From: Streptomyces bauhiniae
GTDB taxonomy: Bacteria > Actinomycetota > Actinomycetes > Streptomycetales > Streptomycetaceae
NCBI RefSeq assembly: GCF_004784475.1
Contig: NZ_SRRT01000001.1
Span: forward strand, 992,001-1,056,000
DNA length: 64,000 bases
Direction: 5' to 3'
Numbering within the stretch: position 1 is the first letter of the stretch; each line of letters opens with the position of its first letter. The position numbers and the translations under genes are program-made. Under the pieces are notes generated by a model that worked only from the letters and a program-made list of their open reading frames with translations, was not told the DNA's origin and ran no database searches. Positions 20,598 through 29,574 of this stretch are shown piece after piece.

Positions 20598-20856
20598 GGG
20601 TCACTCCAAAGACTTCAGATGCACTTACGGTTGATCCCGGCATGCCGGGATCGAGATCAGGAAAACCTGAGATCTTTCAGTGGCGCTGCCAGGGGGAATG
20701 GCCCGACCGGGATCGGGCAACCGGAGCAGCATACAACGACTGCTTCCGTACAACGAAACTACCACGGTGGCCCGGCACCCCGTGCCCGGCCCTCCCGCTA
20801 TGGACGCCGCCCCACGGTCTACGCTGCGTCCCACGTCCAGCCACAGGGAGGCGCAG

Positions 20857-22497
20857 GTGGCGCAGGTGCCGCAGACATTCCTCGATGCTCTCGCGGTGCG
20901 CACCTGGTGCGGTCTGGCGCTGCGCTCGCTGGGGCGGGCGCGCGAGGAGATCGACGCGATCAACGTCTATCCCGTCGCCGACGGGGACACCGGCACCAAC
21001 CTGTACCTGACCGTGGAGTCCGCGACGGCGGCCGTCGAAGCGGTGTTCGCCGGGTACGAGGAGGGGGGCCCTTCCTTCGCGGACGCCCTGCGCGCGATGG
21101 CCCACGGCGCCCTGATCGGCGCCCGCGGCAACTCCGGCACGATCCTCGCCCAGCTCCTGCGCGGCATGGCCCAGGTGCTCACCGGCAGTGACGTCTCTCA
21201 CGTGGACGGCGTTCTTCTCCGGACGGCGCTGCGCCGGGCCGCCGACGCCGCCCGCGAGGCCGTGGCCCACCCGGTCGAGGGCACCGTCCTCACCGTCGCC
21301 TCGGCCGCCGCCGACGCCGCCGACGGGACCGAGGGCGACTGCGGGACCGTCGTCCTGGCCGCCTACGCGGGAGCCCGCGCCGCCCTGGCCGCCACCCCCC
21401 GGCAACTGGCCGTGCTGGGCCGCGCCGGCGTCGTGGACGCGGGCGGGCGGGGTCTGGTGACCGTGCTGGCCTCACTGGTGGAGGCGGTCACGGGAGAGGC
21501 GGTACCGGAGGAGACGTACGCCTCGGCGGCCGGGGCCGAGGTCTGCCCGGACGCCCCCGAGCACGTGGGGGAGGGCGGGCCCGCCTACGAGGTCATCTAC
21601 CTGCTGGAGGCCGATGACGCGGCCGTGGCCCGGCTCCGGGAACGGCTCGACGCCCTCGGCGACTCCCTGGTCGTGGTCGGCGGCGACGGGCTGTGGAACG
21701 TCCATGTGCACGTCGACGACGCCGGTGCCGCCGTGGAGGCGGGCGTGGAGGCCGGCCGGCCGTACCGGATCAGGATCACCCACTTCGCCGTCGGTGACGT
21801 GCACACGGGCGGGGAGCGGACGCCGCGCGAACCGGCGCAGCGGGCCGTCGTCGCCGTGGTGCCCGGCGAGGGGCTGGCCGGGCTGTACGCGGAGGCGGGC
21901 GCCACCACCGTCCTCGCCCGCCCCGGTGAGCCGCCCGCCAGCGGGGAGCTGGCCCAGGCCCTCCGGCGCGCGCACGCCCGCGAGGTCGTCCTGCTGCCCA
22001 ACGACGCCGAACTGCGCCACACGGCCGCCGCTGCCGCCGAGCAGGTACGCGCCGAGGGCGTCCGGGTCGCCCTGATCCCGACCCGCTCGGCGGTGCAGGG
22101 CATCGCCGCGCTCGCCGTGCACGAACCGGAGCGCCGGTTCGACGAGGACGTGGTCCAGATGACCTCGGCCGCCGGAGCCACCCGGTACGCCGAGGTGCTC
22201 GTCGCCGAGCGCCAGTCGTGGACCACGGCCGGGATCTGCCAGGCCGGGGACGTGCTCGGGCTGATCGACGGCGACGTGGCCGTGATCGGCCCCGACCTCA
22301 CCGGTACCGCCGAGACCGTGCTCGACCGCATGCTGCAGGCGGGCGGCGAGCTGGTCACCCTGGTCGTCGGCGACGACGCTCCCGAGGCCGTCGCCGACCG
22401 CCTCGAAGCCCGCGTCCGCGAGTCCTACCTCGCCGTCGACACCGTGGTCTACCGGGGCGGCCGGCAGGGCGCGCCGCTGCTCATCGGCGTGGAGTGA
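20857..22497 (+). CDS. DAK2 (DhaL)-domain protein, FakA/YloV-like kinase
   Basis: A 546-residue protein. The N-terminal DhaL-type domain has the nucleotide and Mg motif NVYPVADGDTGTNL near residue 35 and GARGNSGTILAQLL near 90. A middle domain and a C-terminal domain follow, as in FakA of Firmicutes, the fatty-acid kinase that works with FakB (DegV) carriers. No DegV gene is beside it, so the substrate in Streptomyces is open. I chose the GTG at 20857 because AGGGAGG stands 5 bases before it; longer frames run into the rpmB promoter region. Often sits beside recG; here the Hsp90/TPR pair lies between. Confidence 0.9.
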   Translation: MAQVPQTFLDALAVRTWCGLALRSLGRAREEIDAINVYPVADGDTGTNLYLTVESATAAVEAVFAGYEEGGPSFADALRAMAHGALIGARGNSGTILAQLLRGMAQVLTGSDVSHVDGVLLRTALRRAADAAREAVAHPVEGTVLTVASAAADAADGTEGDCGTVVLAAYAGARAALAATPRQLAVLGRAGVVDAGGRGLVTVLASLVEAVTGEAVPEETYASAAGAEVCPDAPEHVGEGGPAYEVIYLLEADDAAVARLRERLDALGDSLVVVGGDGLWNVHVHVDDAGAAVEAGVEAGRPYRIRITHFAVGDVHTGGERTPREPAQRAVVAVVPGEGLAGLYAEAGATTVLARPGEPPASGELAQALRRAHAREVVLLPNDAELRHTAAAAAEQVRAEGVRVALIPTRSAVQGIAALAVHEPERRFDEDVVQMTSAAGATRYAEVLVAERQSWTTAGICQAGDVLGLIDGDVAVIGPDLTGTAETVLDRMLQAGGELVTLVVGDDAPEAVADRLEARVRESYLAVDTVVYRGGRQGAPLLIGVE

Positions 22498-22512: not shown

Positions 22513-25362
22513 TCACTCCTCGTCCAGCAGGCGGGACGCCGTCTCGCGCCGGAGGCGGACCGTTTCGTCGGTGGCGTCGGCGTCCTCGTAGGCCGCGAGT
22601 ACGGCACGCGCGCGTGCGCTCGCCCCGGCCGTCCGGCCCAGCTCGGCCTCCAGCGCGGCGGCGGCCAGTTCGGCGCCGGTGCGGCCGTGCAGGCCGTCCG
22701 TGCCGAGGTGGGCGAACAGCGCGGCCGATCGCTCCAGCTCCGCCAGCGCCTCCTCGCGCTCCCCTGCCACCGAGGCCAGCAGCTCCCCGAACTGGCGGTG
22801 CGTGTGCGCGAGTTCGGTGGTCAGCCGGGCCTCCTCCAGCGGGTCGTCCGCCTCCGCCAGCGCCTCCCCGCACACCCGCACCGCCCGCGCCATCAGCTCC
22901 CGCGCCCCCGGCACTCCCGCGTCCAGCCGGGGCGCCAGCCAGGCGCGGGCCCGCAGGGCGCGCACGGTGAAGTACGGGTTGCCCAGCGCCTCCCACAGCT
23001 CACCCGCCCGTACGTACGCCCGGTCCGCCTCCGCCGGGAGGTCCGCCTCGGCCAGGGACTCGCCGGCCAGGTGGGCCAGCGTCGCGTGGTCCTGCTGCTC
23101 CGGCCAGTGCTCGGCGATGCCGGCCGCCAGCAGCCGGTGCTCGGCCGCCTGACGGTGCTCGCCCAGCTCGCTCAGGCAGTCCCCGAGCCACCAGCGGGTC
23201 TGCACCAGCGCGCCGTCCCCGTGCACCTCGGCCGACAGCTCGGCGAGCGCCGACTCCAGCACCTCGGCCGCCTCCGTCCAGCGCCCCTGGCGCAGCAGCA
23301 GGCCGCCCAGCAGATGCCGGCCCCAGGCGCCGAAGGTGCCGCTCTCGCCCGCCTCGTCCGCCCAGTGCGCGGCCTGGAGGGCATGCCCGGCGGCCTCCTC
23401 GGTGCCGCCCCGCGCCCCGATCAGCTCGGCGAGCTGGAGGTGGAGCTGGGCCCGCCCGGTCGGCTCCAGATACGCCCCGCCGTGCTCCAGCGCCGACCGC
23501 AGCGCCCGCTCGGCCTCGGCCGGCTCCCCGAGGTGCTGGGACAGCGCGCCCACCCGCGCCTCGTACTCCACGGCGAACCAGGGCAGCCCGGCGCCGGTGT
23601 ACTCGGCAGCCGCCCGCCGGAACAGGTCGGCCGCGCGGGGCAGGTCCCCGCCCAGCTCGGCCAGTTCCGCCAGCATGGCCCGCGCCTCGGCCCCGCGCGC
23701 CACCAGCCGTACGTCGTCCCCGGTGCGGCCGCCGACGAACGCCAGCACCTCCCGCGCGGCCCGCTCCGCCTCCCCGGCGGGGGCGCCCTCGTGGACGCAC
23801 CGCATGAGTACGCGGGCCCGGCTGATCAGCACCCCCGCCGTCTGCCGGGGGCCGGTCACCCCCTCCGCGTACAGCGCGAGCACCTCGTCGTACAGGCCGT
23901 CGACCGTCTTGCGCGCGGGCTCCGTGTCGCCGGTCAGGGCGCGTACGTACGCTCCACGCGCGCGTGCCGCGAGGGCCTCGCCGGGGTCGTCCGCCTCCGC
24001 GTAGAGGGCGGCGGCCTCCTCGAAGTGCGGGATGCCGTCGGCGCCCTGGACCATCGCCTCGTTGTCGGCCAGCTCGGCACGCGCGCGTGCGTCGAGTCCG
24101 GCGCCGTCGGCGGCCCGCGCGAGGGCGGCCCATGCCTGCGGGGCGTCCGGCTGGAGGGTCTCCGAGAGTTGCCGCGCCCGCGCCAGCAGCTCGGGCACCC
24201 CCGGCTCCTCCTCCGGGACCTCCTCGTCGGCCGGCGGGGGCGGCGCCGGAGTCGTCCGTACGCCCAGCGGGAGGCGCTCCACCAGCGGCTTCGCCGCCAT
24301 CGTGGCGCGGGTCAGGTCACCGATGTGCGAGCTGCCGTTGCGCGCGTCGAACCGCGCGGCCAGCTCCAGCGCCTCCCCGCGCGCGTGGACGGCCAGCTCC
24401 CGCGCGGTCCACGTCCGCCCGGCCGGGCCCGGCACCTCCCGGGCGCCCTGCCCGAGCGCGGTCAGCCGGTCCATCAGCAGCGTCACCACGGCCAGGAACT
24501 CCAGCAGGCTGCGCGGATGCCCGGTGTCCGTGAAGTACGCGGGCCGCTCCGCCAGCAGCTCCAGAGCGCGCCCCTCGTTCCCGCTGAGCGCGCAGAACTC
24601 CACATGGGCGGCGTACGCGTCCCGCATGCTCTCCATCGGCCGCACCAGCCTGATGCCCCGCAGATGATGGGCGCGCGCCTCCTCCACCCGGCCAAGCCGC
24701 AGCAGCGGAACCAGTGAGCGGGCCAGCACGCCGTGCGGCTCGTGCGCACAGGCGAACTCGCCCTCCAGCACCGGCGCCCACAGCTCCAGCGCCTCCGCGT
24801 CCCGGCCCTGCCGGGCCTGCCAGCCGCCCTGCCCGCGCAGCTCGCAGGCGTGGCAGTCGGCCATGTCGTCCCGGTCGGCGGCCAGCCACGCCGTGTACGC
24901 CCGCTCGGCCCGCGCCCGGTCCCCGATGTGCGAGGCGATGCCGAACTCGGCCGCGCGTACGGCCCGTTCGGAGTACCCGGCGAGCCGGTAGCGGCGCTCC
25001 ATCTCGCCGAGCCAGTTCTCCACCGACGCCAGCGGGATGTGCGGCTGGCCCAGCATGCCTGCGGTCATCCACTTGAACGTCCAGTGCAGCGCGTGCGCCT
25101 CGTACGCGTCGAAGTCCTCCGGCCGCTCGTCCCACATCCGCAGCAGCCGCGCGAACGGGACGAACACCCGGTCCTTCTCCGAGCTGTAGCTGTAGACCTT
25201 CACCTGATGGCCGAGCGCCTCGATCACCGCGAGCGGGATGTCCAACTTCTCGGCCTCGGCGAGGAGTTCCTCCGCACGCGCGTTGCGTGCCGGGCCCTCC
25301 GGCCGCTCTCCGTTCTCCGCCATGGCCTGGCGCAGCGCCTCGAAGTCCATGATCCGGCTCAT
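22513..25362 (-). CDS. Large tetratricopeptide-like helical-repeat protein coupled to an Hsp90 ATPase
   Basis: A 949-residue, all-helical protein rich in Ala, Leu, Glu and Arg. The first 130 residues (MSRIMDFEALRQAM to HALHWTFKWMTAGM) form a distinctive N-terminal region, a CHACELRG cysteine pair lies near 210, a Pro/acidic linker (PPPPADEEVPEEEP) near 427-440 splits the protein, and the remainder is a series of about 35-40-residue helical hairpins such as ALRAGYLEPTGRAQLHLQ-type repeats, consistent with TPR. There is no signal peptide or membrane segment. Its ATG overlaps the stop of the Hsp90-family gene (ATGA), so synthesis is coupled one to one. By analogy with TPR co-chaperones of eukaryotic Hsp90 I infer a partner or client adaptor role; this is not proven. 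Confidence 0.82.
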   Translation of the reverse strand: MSRIMDFEALRQAMAENGERPEGPARNARAEELLAEAEKLDIPLAVIEALGHQVKVYSYSSEKDRVFVPFARLLRMWDERPEDFDAYEAHALHWTFKWMTAGMLGQPHIPLASVENWLGEMERRYRLAGYSERAVRAAEFGIASHIGDRARAERAYTAWLAADRDDMADCHACELRGQGGWQARQGRDAEALELWAPVLEGEFACAHEPHGVLARSLVPLLRLGRVEEARAHHLRGIRLVRPMESMRDAYAAHVEFCALSGNEGRALELLAERPAYFTDTGHPRSLLEFLAVVTLLMDRLTALGQGAREVPGPAGRTWTARELAVHARGEALELAARFDARNGSSHIGDLTRATMAAKPLVERLPLGVRTTPAPPPPADEEVPEEEPGVPELLARARQLSETLQPDAPQAWAALARAADGAGLDARARAELADNEAMVQGADGIPHFEEAAALYAEADDPGEALAARARGAYVRALTGDTEPARKTVDGLYDEVLALYAEGVTGPRQTAGVLISRARVLMRCVHEGAPAGEAERAAREVLAFVGGRTGDDVRLVARGAEARAMLAELAELGGDLPRAADLFRRAAAEYTGAGLPWFAVEYEARVGALSQHLGEPAEAERALRSALEHGGAYLEPTGRAQLHLQLAELIGARGGTEEAAGHALQAAHWADEAGESGTFGAWGRHLLGGLLLRQGRWTEAAEVLESALAELSAEVHGDGALVQTRWWLGDCLSELGEHRQAAEHRLLAAGIAEHWPEQQDHATLAHLAGESLAEADLPAEADRAYVRAGELWEALGNPYFTVRALRARAWLAPRLDAGVPGARELMARAVRVCGEALAEADDPLEEARLTTELAHTHRQFGELLASVAGEREEALAELERSAALFAHLGTDGLHGRTGAELAAAALEAELGRTAGASARARAVLAAYEDADATDETVRLRRETASRLLDEE

Positions 25363-27182
25363 CGTCCCTCGTCCTCCTTGAGCGTCGCCCGGTCCAGCAG
25401 TCCGGCGAACGCCCGGTTCACCAACGCTGAGTCGGCCGGCCGCAGCGGGCGGTGCGCCAGCAGCAGCGCCTGCCCGTACAGCGCCTCGGCCGCCGTGCCC
25501 GTCAGCTCCGGGTCGGTCAGCGAACCGACGCGCCGGATCAGCGGGTTGAGATGGTTCAGCACCAGCCGGGCGCGTGGCGCGGTGCCGCGCAGCGAGCCCA
25601 GGATGCCCGCCCACAGATCGTCCGCCCGCTCCTCCGCCTCCGCCCGCGCCCGCTCGTGCCGCGCCGACCGGTCGTCCAGATGCAGCGCGGGCACCGACAC
25701 CGGGTGGAACGCCCGCAGCACCACGTCACAGTCCAGCGGATCGAGCCTGGCCCGCGCGGACGCCAGGAAGCCGGACAGCGCCAGCTCCGCCGCCGGGTCC
25801 ACCGAGTCCAGATGCGCGGTCACCGTGTCCGCGTCCAGCTCCGCGACCACCGTGCCCGGCCGCACCGACGGCAGCGCCTCCACCAGCTCCGCGTCGTAGG
25901 TGTAACCCCCGTTCACCACCCCGACACCCTGCGCGGCCGCGATCGGCGCGACCTGGCGGAACTCCTCGACGCTCCGGGTGAAGTGCACCACCGGGTGCCG
26001 CCGCGCGAACTCCGCCAGCGACAGCTCCCCGTCGCTGGTCTCGAACGGCAGCCAGGGCAGCATGACCTTCAGCATCTCGCCGTCGTGCCGGGCCAGCGCC
26101 CGCACCCCGAGGTGGTGCACGGCCAGGAACGCCGACAGCCGCTCCGGGTCACCCGCCGCGAGCCCCGTCAGCCAGTCCCGCACCCGCTCGCCCAGCGCCT
26201 CGCGCACCCCGGCCAGCGTCTCGTCCTCGTACAGCGCCTCGCGCGACGCGGTGGGCCGCAGCGTGTCCGTGTCCAGCACACAGCGGACGAAGAACGCCCA
26301 GTCCGGCAGGAGCTGTTCGGCGCGCTCGGTGAGCAGCATGCCCTTCAGATGCACCCGGTGCGTGGCCCGCTGCGCCGGGCTCACCGCCGAGGGGAGGACG
26401 TACGCCACTCCGCGCACCCCGGCCAGCGGCACGTCCAGCGTGATCGCGTCCAGCGGGGTGAAGCCGAACAGCTCCCGGCAGTGCGCCTCCAGCGCCGCCC
26501 GCCGCTCCACCGGGCTCGGCCAGGGGCGGTCCCAGGGCGCCGGGAGATCGGTGACCCGCTCGTCGTCCACGCGTACGTCGTATGGCAGCAGCGAGCCGAA
26601 GTCCCGCGCCAGGGTGCGCACCCGCGCGGGCGCCAGCCACTCGCCGGCACCCGGCCGCGCCACCAGGTGCACGGTCGTGCCCGGTTCCGGGTGCGCCGAG
26701 TCGGGCAGGGTGCGCACGGTGTACGAGCCGTCGTCGGCGGCCGTCCACTCCACCGGCGGCGCGCCGGGCGTACGAGCGCTGCGGCTGACCACGCGGATGC
26801 GCTCGGCGACCACGAAACAGGCCAGCAGACCGATGCCGAACCGGCCGAGGAACCCGGATCGGGTCTCCTCCAGGCCCTCCGCCCGCTTCGAACTGCGGCC
26901 GATGGTCGCCAGCAGGGTGTGCACGTCCGACTCGGTGAGCCCGATCCCGCTGTCCTCCACCCGGAGCCCGCCCCGCCCGTCCGGGAACAGCCGCACCCGC
27001 GCCGGGGCGCCGGGCTCCTCCGCCCGCCGGGCGGTGACGGCGTCCACGGCGTTCTGCAGCAGCTCGCGCAGGTAGACCTTGGGACTGGAGTACAGGTGCT
27101 GGGAGAGCAGGTCCACCAGACCACGCAGGTCGACCTGGAAGGTGTGCGGGGATGACTGAGGGTTCTGGGAGTCCATCGTCAC
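25359..27182 (-). CDS. Hsp90-family (HtpG-like) ATPase
   Basis: A 607-residue protein with the full Hsp90 order. The GHKL ATPase has LRELLQNAVDAV (Glu40, Asn44, Asp47), VEDSGIGL near 75-82 and GRFGIGLLACF near 112. The middle domain contains TASREALYEDE with the conserved Arg that reaches the ATP, and the C-terminal dimerisation helices (LYGQALLLAHRPLRP) are present. It ends KEDEGR, not MEEVD. It is clearly diverged from canonical HtpG. The start is GTG (or the ATG two codons later); no clear ribosome site is seen. The TPR gene follows with a 4-base overlap. A folding or remodelling role for specific clients is inferred. Confidence 0.9.
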   Translation of the reverse strand: MTMDSQNPQSSPHTFQVDLRGLVDLLSQHLYSSPKVYLRELLQNAVDAVTARRAEEPGAPARVRLFPDGRGGLRVEDSGIGLTESDVHTLLATIGRSSKRAEGLEETRSGFLGRFGIGLLACFVVAERIRVVSRSARTPGAPPVEWTAADDGSYTVRTLPDSAHPEPGTTVHLVARPGAGEWLAPARVRTLARDFGSLLPYDVRVDDERVTDLPAPWDRPWPSPVERRAALEAHCRELFGFTPLDAITLDVPLAGVRGVAYVLPSAVSPAQRATHRVHLKGMLLTERAEQLLPDWAFFVRCVLDTDTLRPTASREALYEDETLAGVREALGERVRDWLTGLAAGDPERLSAFLAVHHLGVRALARHDGEMLKVMLPWLPFETSDGELSLAEFARRHPVVHFTRSVEEFRQVAPIAAAQGVGVVNGGYTYDAELVEALPSVRPGTVVAELDADTVTAHLDSVDPAAELALSGFLASARARLDPLDCDVVLRAFHPVSVPALHLDDRSARHERARAEAEERADDLWAGILGSLRGTAPRARLVLNHLNPLIRRVGSLTDPELTGTAAEALYGQALLLAHRPLRPADSALVNRAFAGLLDRATLKEDEGR

Positions 27183-27372
27183 GGCGCCGGCGGGAGGGGG
27201 CTTCGCGCGGCGCGGGGTCGGGCGGTCGGGGTGCTGTGGGGGCGGTGACCGCGGGGGATGGCCGGAGGCGCGTCATCCTAGGCGCGAAGGGCCGAGCTGA
27301 CCAGGTACTTCGGGGATCTCGCGCGGACCGGGCGGAGTCACCTGTACGGCGATGTCGGTGGTGTGGTGTGCA

Positions 27373-29574
27373 ATGGATCTCGTGCCCGCACTGCGAGAAC
27401 CCCTGAAGAAGGTGCTCGGTCCCGCCACCGCGAAGGTGATGGCCGAGAACCTCGGCCTGCACACCGTCGGCGACCTCCTGCACCACTACCCCCGCAGATA
27501 CGAGGAGCGCGGCCAGCTCACCCACCTCGCCGACCTCCCCATGGACGAGCACGTCACCGTGGTCGCCCAGGTCGCCGACGCCCGGCTGCACAGCTTCGCC
27601 TCCTCGCGCGCCCCGCGCGGCAAGGGCCAGCGGCTGGAGGTCACCATCACCGACGGCAGCGGCCGCCTCCAACTGGTCTTCTTCGGCAACGGCGTGCACA
27701 AGCCGCACAAGGAACTGCTGCCCGGCACCCGCGCGATGTTCTCCGGCAAGGTCTCCGTCTTCAACCGCCGCCTCCAACTCGCGCACCCCGCGTACGAATT
27801 GCTGGACAAGGACGCGGAGGACGGCGACGAGGCGGTGGAGAGCTGGGCCGGCTCCCTCATCCCGATCTACCCCGCCACCGCCAAGCTGGAGTCCTGGAAG
27901 ATCGGCAAGGCGGTACAGACCGTGCTGCCCAGCGTCCAGGAGGCCGTCGACCCGCTCCCCGGGTCCCTGCGCGAGGGGCGCGGCCTGGTCGAGCTGCCCG
28001 AGGCCCTGGTCAAGATCCACCGCCCCGCCACCAAGGCCGACATCGCCGACGCCCGCGCCCGCCTCAAGTGGGACGAGGCGTTCGTCCTCCAGGTCGCCCT
28101 CGCCCGCCGCCGCTACGCCGACACCCAGCTCCCCGCCGTCCCCCGCCGCCCCCTGGCCGACGGCCTCCTCACCGCCTTCGACGCCCGCCTCCCCTTCACC
28201 CTCACCGAAGGCCAGCAGCGCGTCTCCGCCGAGATCTTCAATGACCTCGCCACCTCCCACCCGATGCACCGGCTGTTGCAGGGAGAGGTGGGCTCGGGCA
28301 AGACAATGGTGGCCCTCCGCGCCATGCTCGCCGTGGTCGACGCCGGCGGGCAGGCGGCGATGCTCGCGCCCACCGAGGTGCTCGCTCAGCAGCACCACCG
28401 GTCCATCACCGAGATGATGGGGGAGCTGGCCGAGGGGGGCATGCTGGGCGGGTCGGAGCACGGGACCAAGGTGGTGCTGCTGACCGGGTCGATGGGGGCG
28501 GCCGCGCGCAGGCAGGCGCTGCTGGACATCGTCACCGGTGAGGCGGGGATCGTCATCGGCACCCACGCGCTCATCGAGGACAAGGTCCAGTTCCACGACC
28601 TCGGCCTGGTCGTCGTGGACGAACAGCACCGCTTCGGCGTCGAGCAGCGCGACGCCCTGCGCGGCAAGGGCAAACAGCCCCCGCACCTCCTCGTCATGAC
28701 GGCCACCCCGATCCCGCGCACGGTCGCGATGACGGTCTTCGGCGACCTGGAGACCTCGGTCCTGGACCAGCTTCCGGCGGGCCGCTCCCCGATCGCCACC
28801 CATGTCGTCCCGGCCGCCGACAAGCCCCACTTCCTCGCCCGCGCCTGGGAACGCGTCCGCGAGGAGGCCGAGAACGGCCACCAGGCGTACGTGGTCTGCC
28901 CCCGCATCGGCGACGAGGACGAGAGCGCCGCCGAGAAGAAGGCCACCGAGGGCGACAAGCGACCCCCGCTCGCCGTCCTCGACATCGCCGACCAGCTCGC
29001 CCGCGGTCCGCTCCAGGGCCTCAGGGTCGAGGTGCTGCACGGCAGGATGCACCCCGACGACAAGGACGCCGTGATGCGCCGCTTCGCCGCCGGGGAGACG
29101 GACGTCCTGGTCGCCACCACGGTCATCGAGGTCGGCGTCAACGTCCCCAACGCCACCGCGATGGTCATCATGGACGCCGACCGCTTCGGCGTCTCCCAGC
29201 TCCACCAGCTCCGCGGCCGCGTCGGCCGAGGCTCGGCCCCCGGCCTCTGCCTCCTGGTCAGCGAGATGCCCGAGGCCAGCCCCGCCCGCCAGCGCCTCAA
29301 CGCCGTCGCCTCCACCCTCGACGGCTTCGAACTCTCCCGCATCGACCTCGAACAACGCCGCGAGGGCGACGTCCTCGGCCAGGCCCAGTCCGGCGCCCGC
29401 ACCAGCCTCCGCGTCCTGGAGGTCATCGAGGACGAGGAAATCATCACGGAGGCAAGAGAAGAAGCGACAGCGCTGGTAGAGGCAGACCCGGAGCTGGAGC
29501 GCCTACCCGGCCTACGCACAGCCCTGCAGGCCCTCTTGGACGAGGAAAGAGAGCAGTACCTGGAAAAGGGCTGA
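27373..29574 (+). CDS. recG: ATP-dependent DNA helicase RecG
   Basis: A 733-residue superfamily-2 helicase that rewinds forks and processes Holliday junctions. The N-terminal wedge OB fold is around residues 50-150; helicase motifs include GEVGSGKTMVAL (Walker A), VVDEQHRFGVEQR (DEQH), MTATPIPRTVAMT, TTVIEVGVNVPNAT and QLRGRVGRG. The ATG at 27373 (MDLVPAL) matches homologues; an ATG 7 codons earlier is possible. Codon use is strongly NNC. A gap of 190 bases separates it from the divergent Hsp90 gene. Confidence 0.96.
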   Translation: MDLVPALREPLKKVLGPATAKVMAENLGLHTVGDLLHHYPRRYEERGQLTHLADLPMDEHVTVVAQVADARLHSFASSRAPRGKGQRLEVTITDGSGRLQLVFFGNGVHKPHKELLPGTRAMFSGKVSVFNRRLQLAHPAYELLDKDAEDGDEAVESWAGSLIPIYPATAKLESWKIGKAVQTVLPSVQEAVDPLPGSLREGRGLVELPEALVKIHRPATKADIADARARLKWDEAFVLQVALARRRYADTQLPAVPRRPLADGLLTAFDARLPFTLTEGQQRVSAEIFNDLATSHPMHRLLQGEVGSGKTMVALRAMLAVVDAGGQAAMLAPTEVLAQQHHRSITEMMGELAEGGMLGGSEHGTKVVLLTGSMGAAARRQALLDIVTGEAGIVIGTHALIEDKVQFHDLGLVVVDEQHRFGVEQRDALRGKGKQPPHLLVMTATPIPRTVAMTVFGDLETSVLDQLPAGRSPIATHVVPAADKPHFLARAWERVREEAENGHQAYVVCPRIGDEDESAAEKKATEGDKRPPLAVLDIADQLARGPLQGLRVEVLHGRMHPDDKDAVMRRFAAGETDVLVATTVIEVGVNVPNATAMVIMDADRFGVSQLHQLRGRVGRGSAPGLCLLVSEMPEASPARQRLNAVASTLDGFELSRIDLEQRREGDVLGQAQSGARTSLRVLEVIEDEEIITEAREEATALVEADPELERLPGLRTALQALLDEEREQYLEKG

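Follow-up and report, generated by a model that had tools for sequence, protein, structure and literature searches.

In a 64,000-nucleotide stretch of the Streptomyces bauhiniae genome (contig NZ_SRRT01000001.1, positions 992,001 to 1,056,000; hereafter the window), two overlapping genes on the reverse strand probably encode a bacterial Hsp90C-type chaperone, driven by ATP, and a dedicated, co-translated helical-repeat partner, which would serve as a co-chaperone or client adaptor. By analogy, the pair appears to be a so far undescribed bacterial equivalent of the eukaryotic partnership between Hsp90 and its co-chaperones, and we recognised no account of it in the open-access literature. Holding together across several phyla, it is a concrete candidate, testable in tractable hosts, for the origin of co-chaperoned Hsp90 machines, and it suggests a function for many "hypothetical" proteins, for example the two encoded behind the Hsp90 gene of Listeria.

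Both open reading frames (ORFs) are intact where a preliminary description of the window had placed them, and the ATGA overlap reported there was confirmed at 25359-25362. The features of the pair are listed below in window positions; TPR stands for tetratricopeptide repeat.

25359..27182, reverse strand: Hsp90C-type chaperone gene (NF010683/PRK14083, "HSP90 family protein"), 607 aa from GTG
26550..27146, reverse strand: Hsp90 N-terminal ATPase domain, residues 13-211
25734..26537, reverse strand: Hsp90 middle domain, residues about 216-483
25383..25733, reverse strand: Hsp90 C-terminal dimerisation domain, residues about 484-600, the least conserved part of the family
25372..25379, reverse strand: AAGGAGGA, within the final codons of the Hsp90 gene, a Shine-Dalgarno-like sequence for the partner
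25359..25362, reverse strand: ATGA, four-base overlap of the partner start codon and the Hsp90 stop codon
22513..25362, reverse strand: partner gene, helical-repeat protein of 949 aa
24283..25362, reverse strand: partner N-domain, residues 1-360, the portion common to partners of other phyla
24844..24855, reverse strand: partner Cys170-x-x-Cys173, kept in 149 and 148 of 153 partner sequences
24748-24750, reverse strand: third partner cysteine, Cys205, kept in 148 of 153 sequences
24337..24351, reverse strand: partner FDxRN motif (F338-N342), with R341 in 152/152 and N342 in 150/152 sequences
22516..24198, reverse strand: C-terminal TPR half of the partner, residues 389-949, fast evolving

An ATG at 27176, two codons inside the GTG, corresponds to the Hsp90 start in close relatives, so a real length of 605 residues is likelier than 607.

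Adjacency and co-occurrence of the two genes

The loci used for counting were chosen by their Hsp90 genes (L062-L101, L156-L175 and L180-L259); a set fetched by partner hits (L112-L131) was not counted as unbiased. Within the genus, 40 loci were hand-picked from the Hsp90 rows of family searches, and the partner gene lay directly downstream of Hsp90 in all 40, -8 to +19 bp away. Of 20 loci from other families of the class, 18 contained the partner by a strict rule; L163 contained a diverged partner-like ORF, and L175 none.

The association extends beyond the actinobacteria. In a Paenibacillus record, the Hsp90 gene overlaps by ATGA an ORF of about 350 residues that matches only the N-terminal part of the partner, and in a Listeria record two partner ORFs of about 350 residues stand in tandem behind an "HSP90 family protein". 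From its position beside fri, we infer that this Listeria gene is lmo0942, which is named in the accessible text of a paper about fri and in the heat-shock gene list of another. A scan of several phyla was based on an Hsp90 alignment with one genome per species and covered the best 80 of at least 576 relatives, several of the records being metagenome-assembled genomes (MAGs). By their record titles, these loci represent Paenibacillus and other Bacillota, Planctomycetota, Acidobacteria, Corallococcus and other myxobacteria, and actinobacteria, and further Flexithrix, Myroides, Undibacterium, a Deinococcales MAG and Desulfobacterales. The partner-domain profile was seeded with the first pair sets and the Listeria and Paenibacillus sequences, and the seed alone and the enlarged profile identified the same 85 ORFs. 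The partner domain was encoded downstream on the same strand in 71 of the 80 loci, within 400 bp in 70 of them and at 773 bp in L188. The remaining nine had it on the opposite strand (L212) or upstream (L251), ended at a contig edge (L190, L211, L233) or contained none in the fetched stretch (L204, L238, L239, L258). All 30 genomes examined by way of multi-phylum Hsp90 loci contained the partner domain, including four that lacked a copy in the fetched stretch.

Co-occurrence was near-obligate as well. Among the 119 genomes of the order sample, 82 contained both genes, 35 neither, two the partner only (G171 and G471) and none the Hsp90 only (Fisher p = 4e-28, ignoring shared ancestry). The 98 genomes of a Bacillota family were divided into 33 with both, 63 with neither, one with Hsp90 only (G925) and one with the partner only (G914), giving a Fisher p of 9e-24, which again ignores shared ancestry; here the partner match started 2-45 bp after the end of the Hsp90 match in 33 of 34 Hsp90 loci. 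In the class sample, 46 of 394 genomes had an Hsp90 over the family cut-off and 48 of 388 had the partner domain; four were partner-only (G171, G471, G610, G788) and one had Hsp90 only (G659). G872 is not among these partner genomes despite a partner beside its Hsp90 (L173), and may lie outside that sample. The partner was thus found without Hsp90 in 2 of 84 (order), 1 of 34 (Bacillota family) and 4 of 48 (class) partner genomes. The preliminary description had proposed that the two genes form a self-contained module, with the partner dedicated to the Hsp90, an idea to be abandoned if the TPR protein usually occurred without the Hsp90 gene; both adjacency and co-occurrence support the proposal.

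Mirror-tree comparisons of Hsp90 and partner gave r = 0.92 (n=73) and, across several phyla, r = 0.94 (n=70). Hsp90 exceeded the cut-off in 158 of 246 genomes of the genus and in 7 of 198 genomes sampled phylum-wide, all seven belonging to the genus; the distribution of Hsp90C is therefore patchy. Pairs were found at differing sites within one genome, with two loci each in G023, G307 and G405. Because of these different places in one genome, for example in G023 and G307, the pair seems to travel as a unit.

The Hsp90C chaperone and its helical-repeat partner

The window Hsp90 is a member of NCBIfam family NF010683 (848.8 bits over the whole protein, cut-off 455). Against the canonical HtpG model NF003555 it scored 162.4 bits, below the cut-off of 371, and the best stretch stopped at residue 395, which is also about as far as a sequence alignment with TRAP1 and HtpG reaches. 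A Foldseek search with the predicted model identified full-length matches to TRAP1 and HtpG, and structure comparison with TRAP1 (7exp) gave Z = 22.1 and a root-mean-square deviation (rmsd) of 14.7 over 485 residues, spanning residues 2-602. The model itself is of moderate quality (mean predicted local distance difference test score, pLDDT, 74.5; predicted template modelling score, pTM, 0.55), with weak domain placement. The N-terminal, middle and dimerisation parts all seem to be present. Nine ATPase and middle-domain residues (E40, N44, D77, G79, G81, G113, G116, G118 and R314) were invariant in 161 of 161 family members, and T169 was kept in 160. With its catalytic residues intact and a fold match over nearly its full length, the protein fits the earlier designation as a complete but diverged Hsp90.

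Canonical HtpG (Hsp90A) has the same domain plan and catalytic residues; the window Hsp90 differs from it in falling below the HtpG cut-off and in several further respects. At the position after the catalytic loop, 134 of 161 Hsp90C members had a tyrosine (Y318), where all 15 HtpG sequences had a glutamine. Altogether 34 positions were conserved in Hsp90C and not in HtpG: the N-terminal domain has 17 of them, the middle domain 15 and the C-terminal domain 2; only 5 of 118 columns of the Hsp90C C-domain reached 95% conservation or more. In a midpoint-rooted tree, 15 HtpG sequences formed a clan separate from 41 Hsp90C sequences, with a support of 1.0 on the HtpG side and 0.49 on the other. The partner N-domain was not detected at any of 15 HtpG control loci with E values up to 1, in stretches that extended only 0.3-0.9 kb beyond the gene end. 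The HtpG model was applied to ten of these control proteins and recognised every one (639-797 bits).

In the window genome itself (6.75 Mb, estimated to be 100% complete), the only PF00183 match was the window gene, and the family search gave no HtpG-like match; the species thus shows no canonical HtpG. Of the 82 order-sample genomes with the pair, at least 32 nevertheless contained an HtpG-like gene as well, and the partner was absent from all 13 genomes in which the HtpG-like type was the only one. The label "HtpG-like" in these counts reflects a weak NF010683 score, the HtpG model itself having been run only on Hsp90C proteins and ten control loci. The idea, raised in the preliminary description, that the window gene is simply the HtpG of its species agrees with the first of these observations, and both counts from the order sample run counter to it. 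Two other, weak Hsp90-like ATPase-domain matches were noted in the window genome (G000:C11:81645-82217, E = 2e-14; G000:C14:320186-320452, E = 7e-6), in ORFs of 1922 and 1047 residues.

Three groups of bacterial HTPG have been described, with two copies of different groups in S. coelicolor (Chen 2006, PMC1525184), and Actinobacteria and Firmicutes are reported to have Groups A and C (PMC1525184). From this distribution we infer that PRK14083 corresponds to Group C (hsp90C), which the window Hsp90 resembles by scoring far over the NF010683 cut-off.

The Hsp90 ends in KEDEGR, and its C-terminus is not MEEVD-like, as had been noted earlier. The codons of this tail (AAGGAGGA...CGATGA) contain the Shine-Dalgarno sequence of the partner gene, and it is because this sequence is encoded there that the tail is acidic. 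A loose Shine-Dalgarno-like pattern was present in 35 of 40 genus loci. Among the tails displayed from several phyla, length and sequence varied and no conserved tail was found; the Listeria protein has only 3 residues beyond the last helix anchor. We considered KEDEGR as an analogue of MEEVD and rejected it, as the tail coincides with the ribosome-binding site of the partner and is unconserved across the family.

The partner is predicted with confidence (mean pLDDT 91.9, pTM 0.86) to fold as an all-helical superhelix, in which a linker at about residues 370-388 precedes a second helical half. A first fold search identified general TPR superhelices, and a second look revealed that mostly the C-terminal half was matched. 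In a search with the whole model, this half resembled the TPRs of kinesin light chain, of LGN (5a6c, Z = 21.2, rmsd 7.0, 326 residues) and of the bacterial kinesin-light-chain-like protein BtubC (5o01, Z = 19.6, rmsd 4.2, 231 residues). The resemblance to a TPR superhelix thus applies to the C-terminal half of the model only, the N-domain being barely covered by the fold-search rows. By sequence, the window protein did not reach the gathering score of any Pfam TPR family (best TPR_12, 23.9 bits, cut-off 30.1), and one Listeria copy was marginally over that of TPR_8 (26.1 vs 25.7 bits). A sequence search identified no relatives of the partner with solved structures, and Pfam and NCBIfam scans revealed no effector or nuclease domain.

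The N-terminal residues, about 360 in number, form a separate conserved domain, for which no Pfam or NCBIfam model exceeded its cut-off in the window protein. The earlier designation of a 949-residue TPR-like protein therefore holds for the C-terminal half and not for this domain. Its signature (W-x2-[FY]-K-W, DC-x2-C, C-x3-P and FD-x-RN) would be new, judging from these profile searches. Besides the cysteines and the FDxRN motif, W94 (147), K97 (149), P209 (152), A229 (151) and D339 (147) were kept across the 152-153 aligned sequences, half or more of which were actinobacterial. Outside the actinobacteria, the partner is usually this domain of about 350 residues alone, and the C-terminal TPR half is missing from the Listeria and Paenibacillus partners; the TPR half appears to be an actinobacterial addition. 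Inside the core clade, mean identity was 62% for the partner and 84% for Hsp90.

The proposed partnership and its alternatives

Under the reading that we prefer, Hsp90C and the partner would form a physical complex, in which the partner N-domain is predicted to bind the N-terminal and middle part of the Hsp90C dimer and not the C-terminal tail. Binding would couple the ATPase cycle to particular clients, which the variable remainder of the partner may present, in actinobacteria through the kinesin-light-chain/LGN-like TPR superhelix and elsewhere sometimes through extra tandem copies of the domain. Contact on the N-terminal and middle domains, unlike that of Hop-type co-chaperones, is expected because 32 of the 34 Hsp90C-specific positions lie there and because the tail is unconserved and otherwise explained; these data point only weakly to the contact site. 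A role in client choice is suggested by the rest of the partner, which occurs in multiple copies or in extended form.

Several points count against this partnership. Linked genes co-diverge regardless of contact between their products, and operon partners can equally be client and chaperone. N-domains are commonly the best conserved part of Hsp90 proteins, which weakens the assignment of the contact site. There are also exceptions to the pairing, namely orphan partners without a PRK14083 Hsp90 (G171, G471, G610, G788, G914) and Hsp90 genes without a partner (G659/L175 and G925).

A more far-reaching version of the partnership is put forward tentatively, as a possibility that we would not favour at present. 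The partner N-domain may found a class of obligate bacterial Hsp90 co-chaperones as old as Hsp90C itself, with a cysteine triad (C170-x2-C173 and C205) that binds zinc or senses redox state and so gates the ATPase. Hsp90C and partner would then be a two-component stress chaperone, and the actinobacterial TPR half a later client adaptor. The zinc or redox role is a guess from the conservation of the cysteines.

Eukaryotic Hsp90 with its TPR co-chaperones (Hop, FKBP51/52, PP5) offers a way of thinking about an Hsp90 that is paired with a helical-repeat protein. The bacterial pair differs in that Hsp90C has no MEEVD tail and the domain common to all partners is at most marginally TPR-like. Among bacterial systems, HtpG also works with helper proteins, namely DnaK, DnaJ or CbpA; these belong to the Hsp70 system, whereas the partner described here is a helical-repeat protein encoded together with its Hsp90. 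A meeting report describes Hsp70 as an obligate cochaperone of Hsp90 and refers to a complex of HtpG, CbpA and DnaK (PMC10111302). According to the accessible text of a 2021 HtpG paper, eubacteria are without apparent orthologues of Hop, Aha1 or p23 (PMC8082187). Likewise, the accessible text of Press 2013 states that no obligate bacterial Hsp90 co-chaperone had been identified, in a study that ignored hsp90B and hsp90C (PMC3708813), and the word TPR is absent from the main text of that paper and of PMC1525184. In prokaryotes, the MoxR-vWA and GTPase conflict systems likewise combine the genes of a chaperone ATPase and a co-chaperone; they involve other ATPase families, and the main text of their description does not contain the word Hsp90 (PMC7159879).

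The main rival explanation, which we consider unlikely, is that the partner is a dedicated client, a helical-repeat sensor, scaffold or effector that Hsp90C folds or switches. Such a protein could evolve much faster than its chaperone, as the partner does within the core clade (62% vs 84% identity), and an obligate client would likewise explain joint losses. Several partner copies per Hsp90, as if for several clients, were found at L226, L230, L247, L248, L252 and L254 and in G911 and G946. However, residues of the N-domain are near invariant across phyla, more like those of a binding platform, and helical repeats generally fold without Hsp90.

It is improbable that the two genes make up a mobile module for stress or anti-phage responses, with Hsp90C gating a helical-repeat sensor or effector. 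The patchy distribution (158/246 genus and 7/198 phylum-wide genomes), the several genomic sites, the occurrence on Streptomyces plasmids and the decayed copies would all suit such a module. The suggestion of a defence module in the preliminary description found no backing, as PADLOC scans gave nothing specific: the partner had no hit, and Hsp90 matched only through its ATPase part (TmtA/REase models), so no known anti-phage system was recognised. The partner also lacks a recognisable effector or nuclease domain in the scans described above. Among 55 neighbour ORFs at 28 loci, the 25 PADLOC families listed (of 41) each matched 3 members in raw counts, as did Pfam protein kinase, and apart from a second kinase model the other listed Pfam matches were mixed genes found once or twice each. 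Moreover, 18 of 40 genus loci have one site in common, between the genes labelled DAK and recG.

That Hsp90C is the general HtpG of its lineage, with a convenience operon neighbour that it never contacts, was already disfavoured and is very improbable: it draws on the absence of canonical HtpG from the window genome, while at least 32 order-sample genomes carry both types and it is the PRK14083 type that the partner accompanies, at several genomic positions and across several phyla.

Genomic surroundings and locus variants

The pair is flanked in the window by two genes whose names, taken from the preliminary description, serve as labels only.

20680..22497, forward strand: gene labelled DAK, convergent with the partner gene, flank of the core site
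27352..29574, forward strand: gene labelled recG, divergent from the Hsp90 gene, flank of the core site

The pair had been described as a possible insertion between these genes. Both do flank it in 18 of the 40 genus loci, but the other 22 loci lie elsewhere. Scans of the window for the consensus sequences of the heat-shock operators HAIR and CIRCE, allowing up to 3 mismatches, gave no match, and no consensus promoters were found either. Across phyla, no conserved third gene stands out, Hsp90 itself being recovered among the chosen ORFs in 77 of 116 loci; the most recurrent flanking cluster was found at 9 loci in 7 of 33 clades, at varying distance. None of the ORFs in this 116-locus neighbourhood set held both the Hsp90 and the partner domain.

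Full-length Hsp90 was found on three Streptomyces plasmids in a plasmid collection. One, a mobilizable plasmid of Streptomyces globosus, carries the whole pair (L176:6992-11962), and Hsp90 matches were found on plasmids of two other Streptomyces. In the plasmid and phage collections, one Paenibacillus and one Listeria record likewise encode the pair. The whole pair is also present in MT837560, a faecal record titled "Bacteriophage sp.", with a partner ORF of 1069 residues (L179:1648-6485); this is probably bacterial DNA filed as phage.

Two to four partner-domain genes stand behind a single Hsp90 at L252:7773-12209, L247:6054-9271, L226, L230, L248 and L254. The multi-copy loci belong to some Clostridia, Deinococcales and Myroides, and multiple copies were also found in G911 and G946; some of the ORFs at such loci, with 760-780 residues, extend beyond the partner domain.

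Directly upstream of the orphan partner of G171, at the place expected for Hsp90, is an ORF that by eye resembles an IS110-like transposase (L112:11745-12941), which suggests that the Hsp90 gene was lost by insertion. The divergent Hsp90 of G659 (L175:8839-10776) scored at the family cut-off (454 bits, or 479.7 with neighbours in frame), has no partner hit nearby and may represent a different subfamily. Partner remnants without the N-terminus were found at L127:8528-10807 and L130:8162-10414, with no Hsp90 in the fetched stretch, and L124 holds a divergent paralogue; decay or divergence seems to have affected these orphans. Two further copies are broken, an Hsp90 gene in two pieces (G463:C1:2671016-2672793) and a frameshifted partner (L062:6978-9963, G023), unless the breaks are assembly errors.

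A DUF4034-like gene of about 320-390 residues, not present in the window, was found in the fetched stretch of 21 loci (L082-L086, L088-L097, L114, L119, L122, L125, L129 and L176), mostly second copies of the genus and mostly from one Streptomyces clade. One member scored just below the Pfam cut-off, and where inspected the gene lay upstream of the pair.

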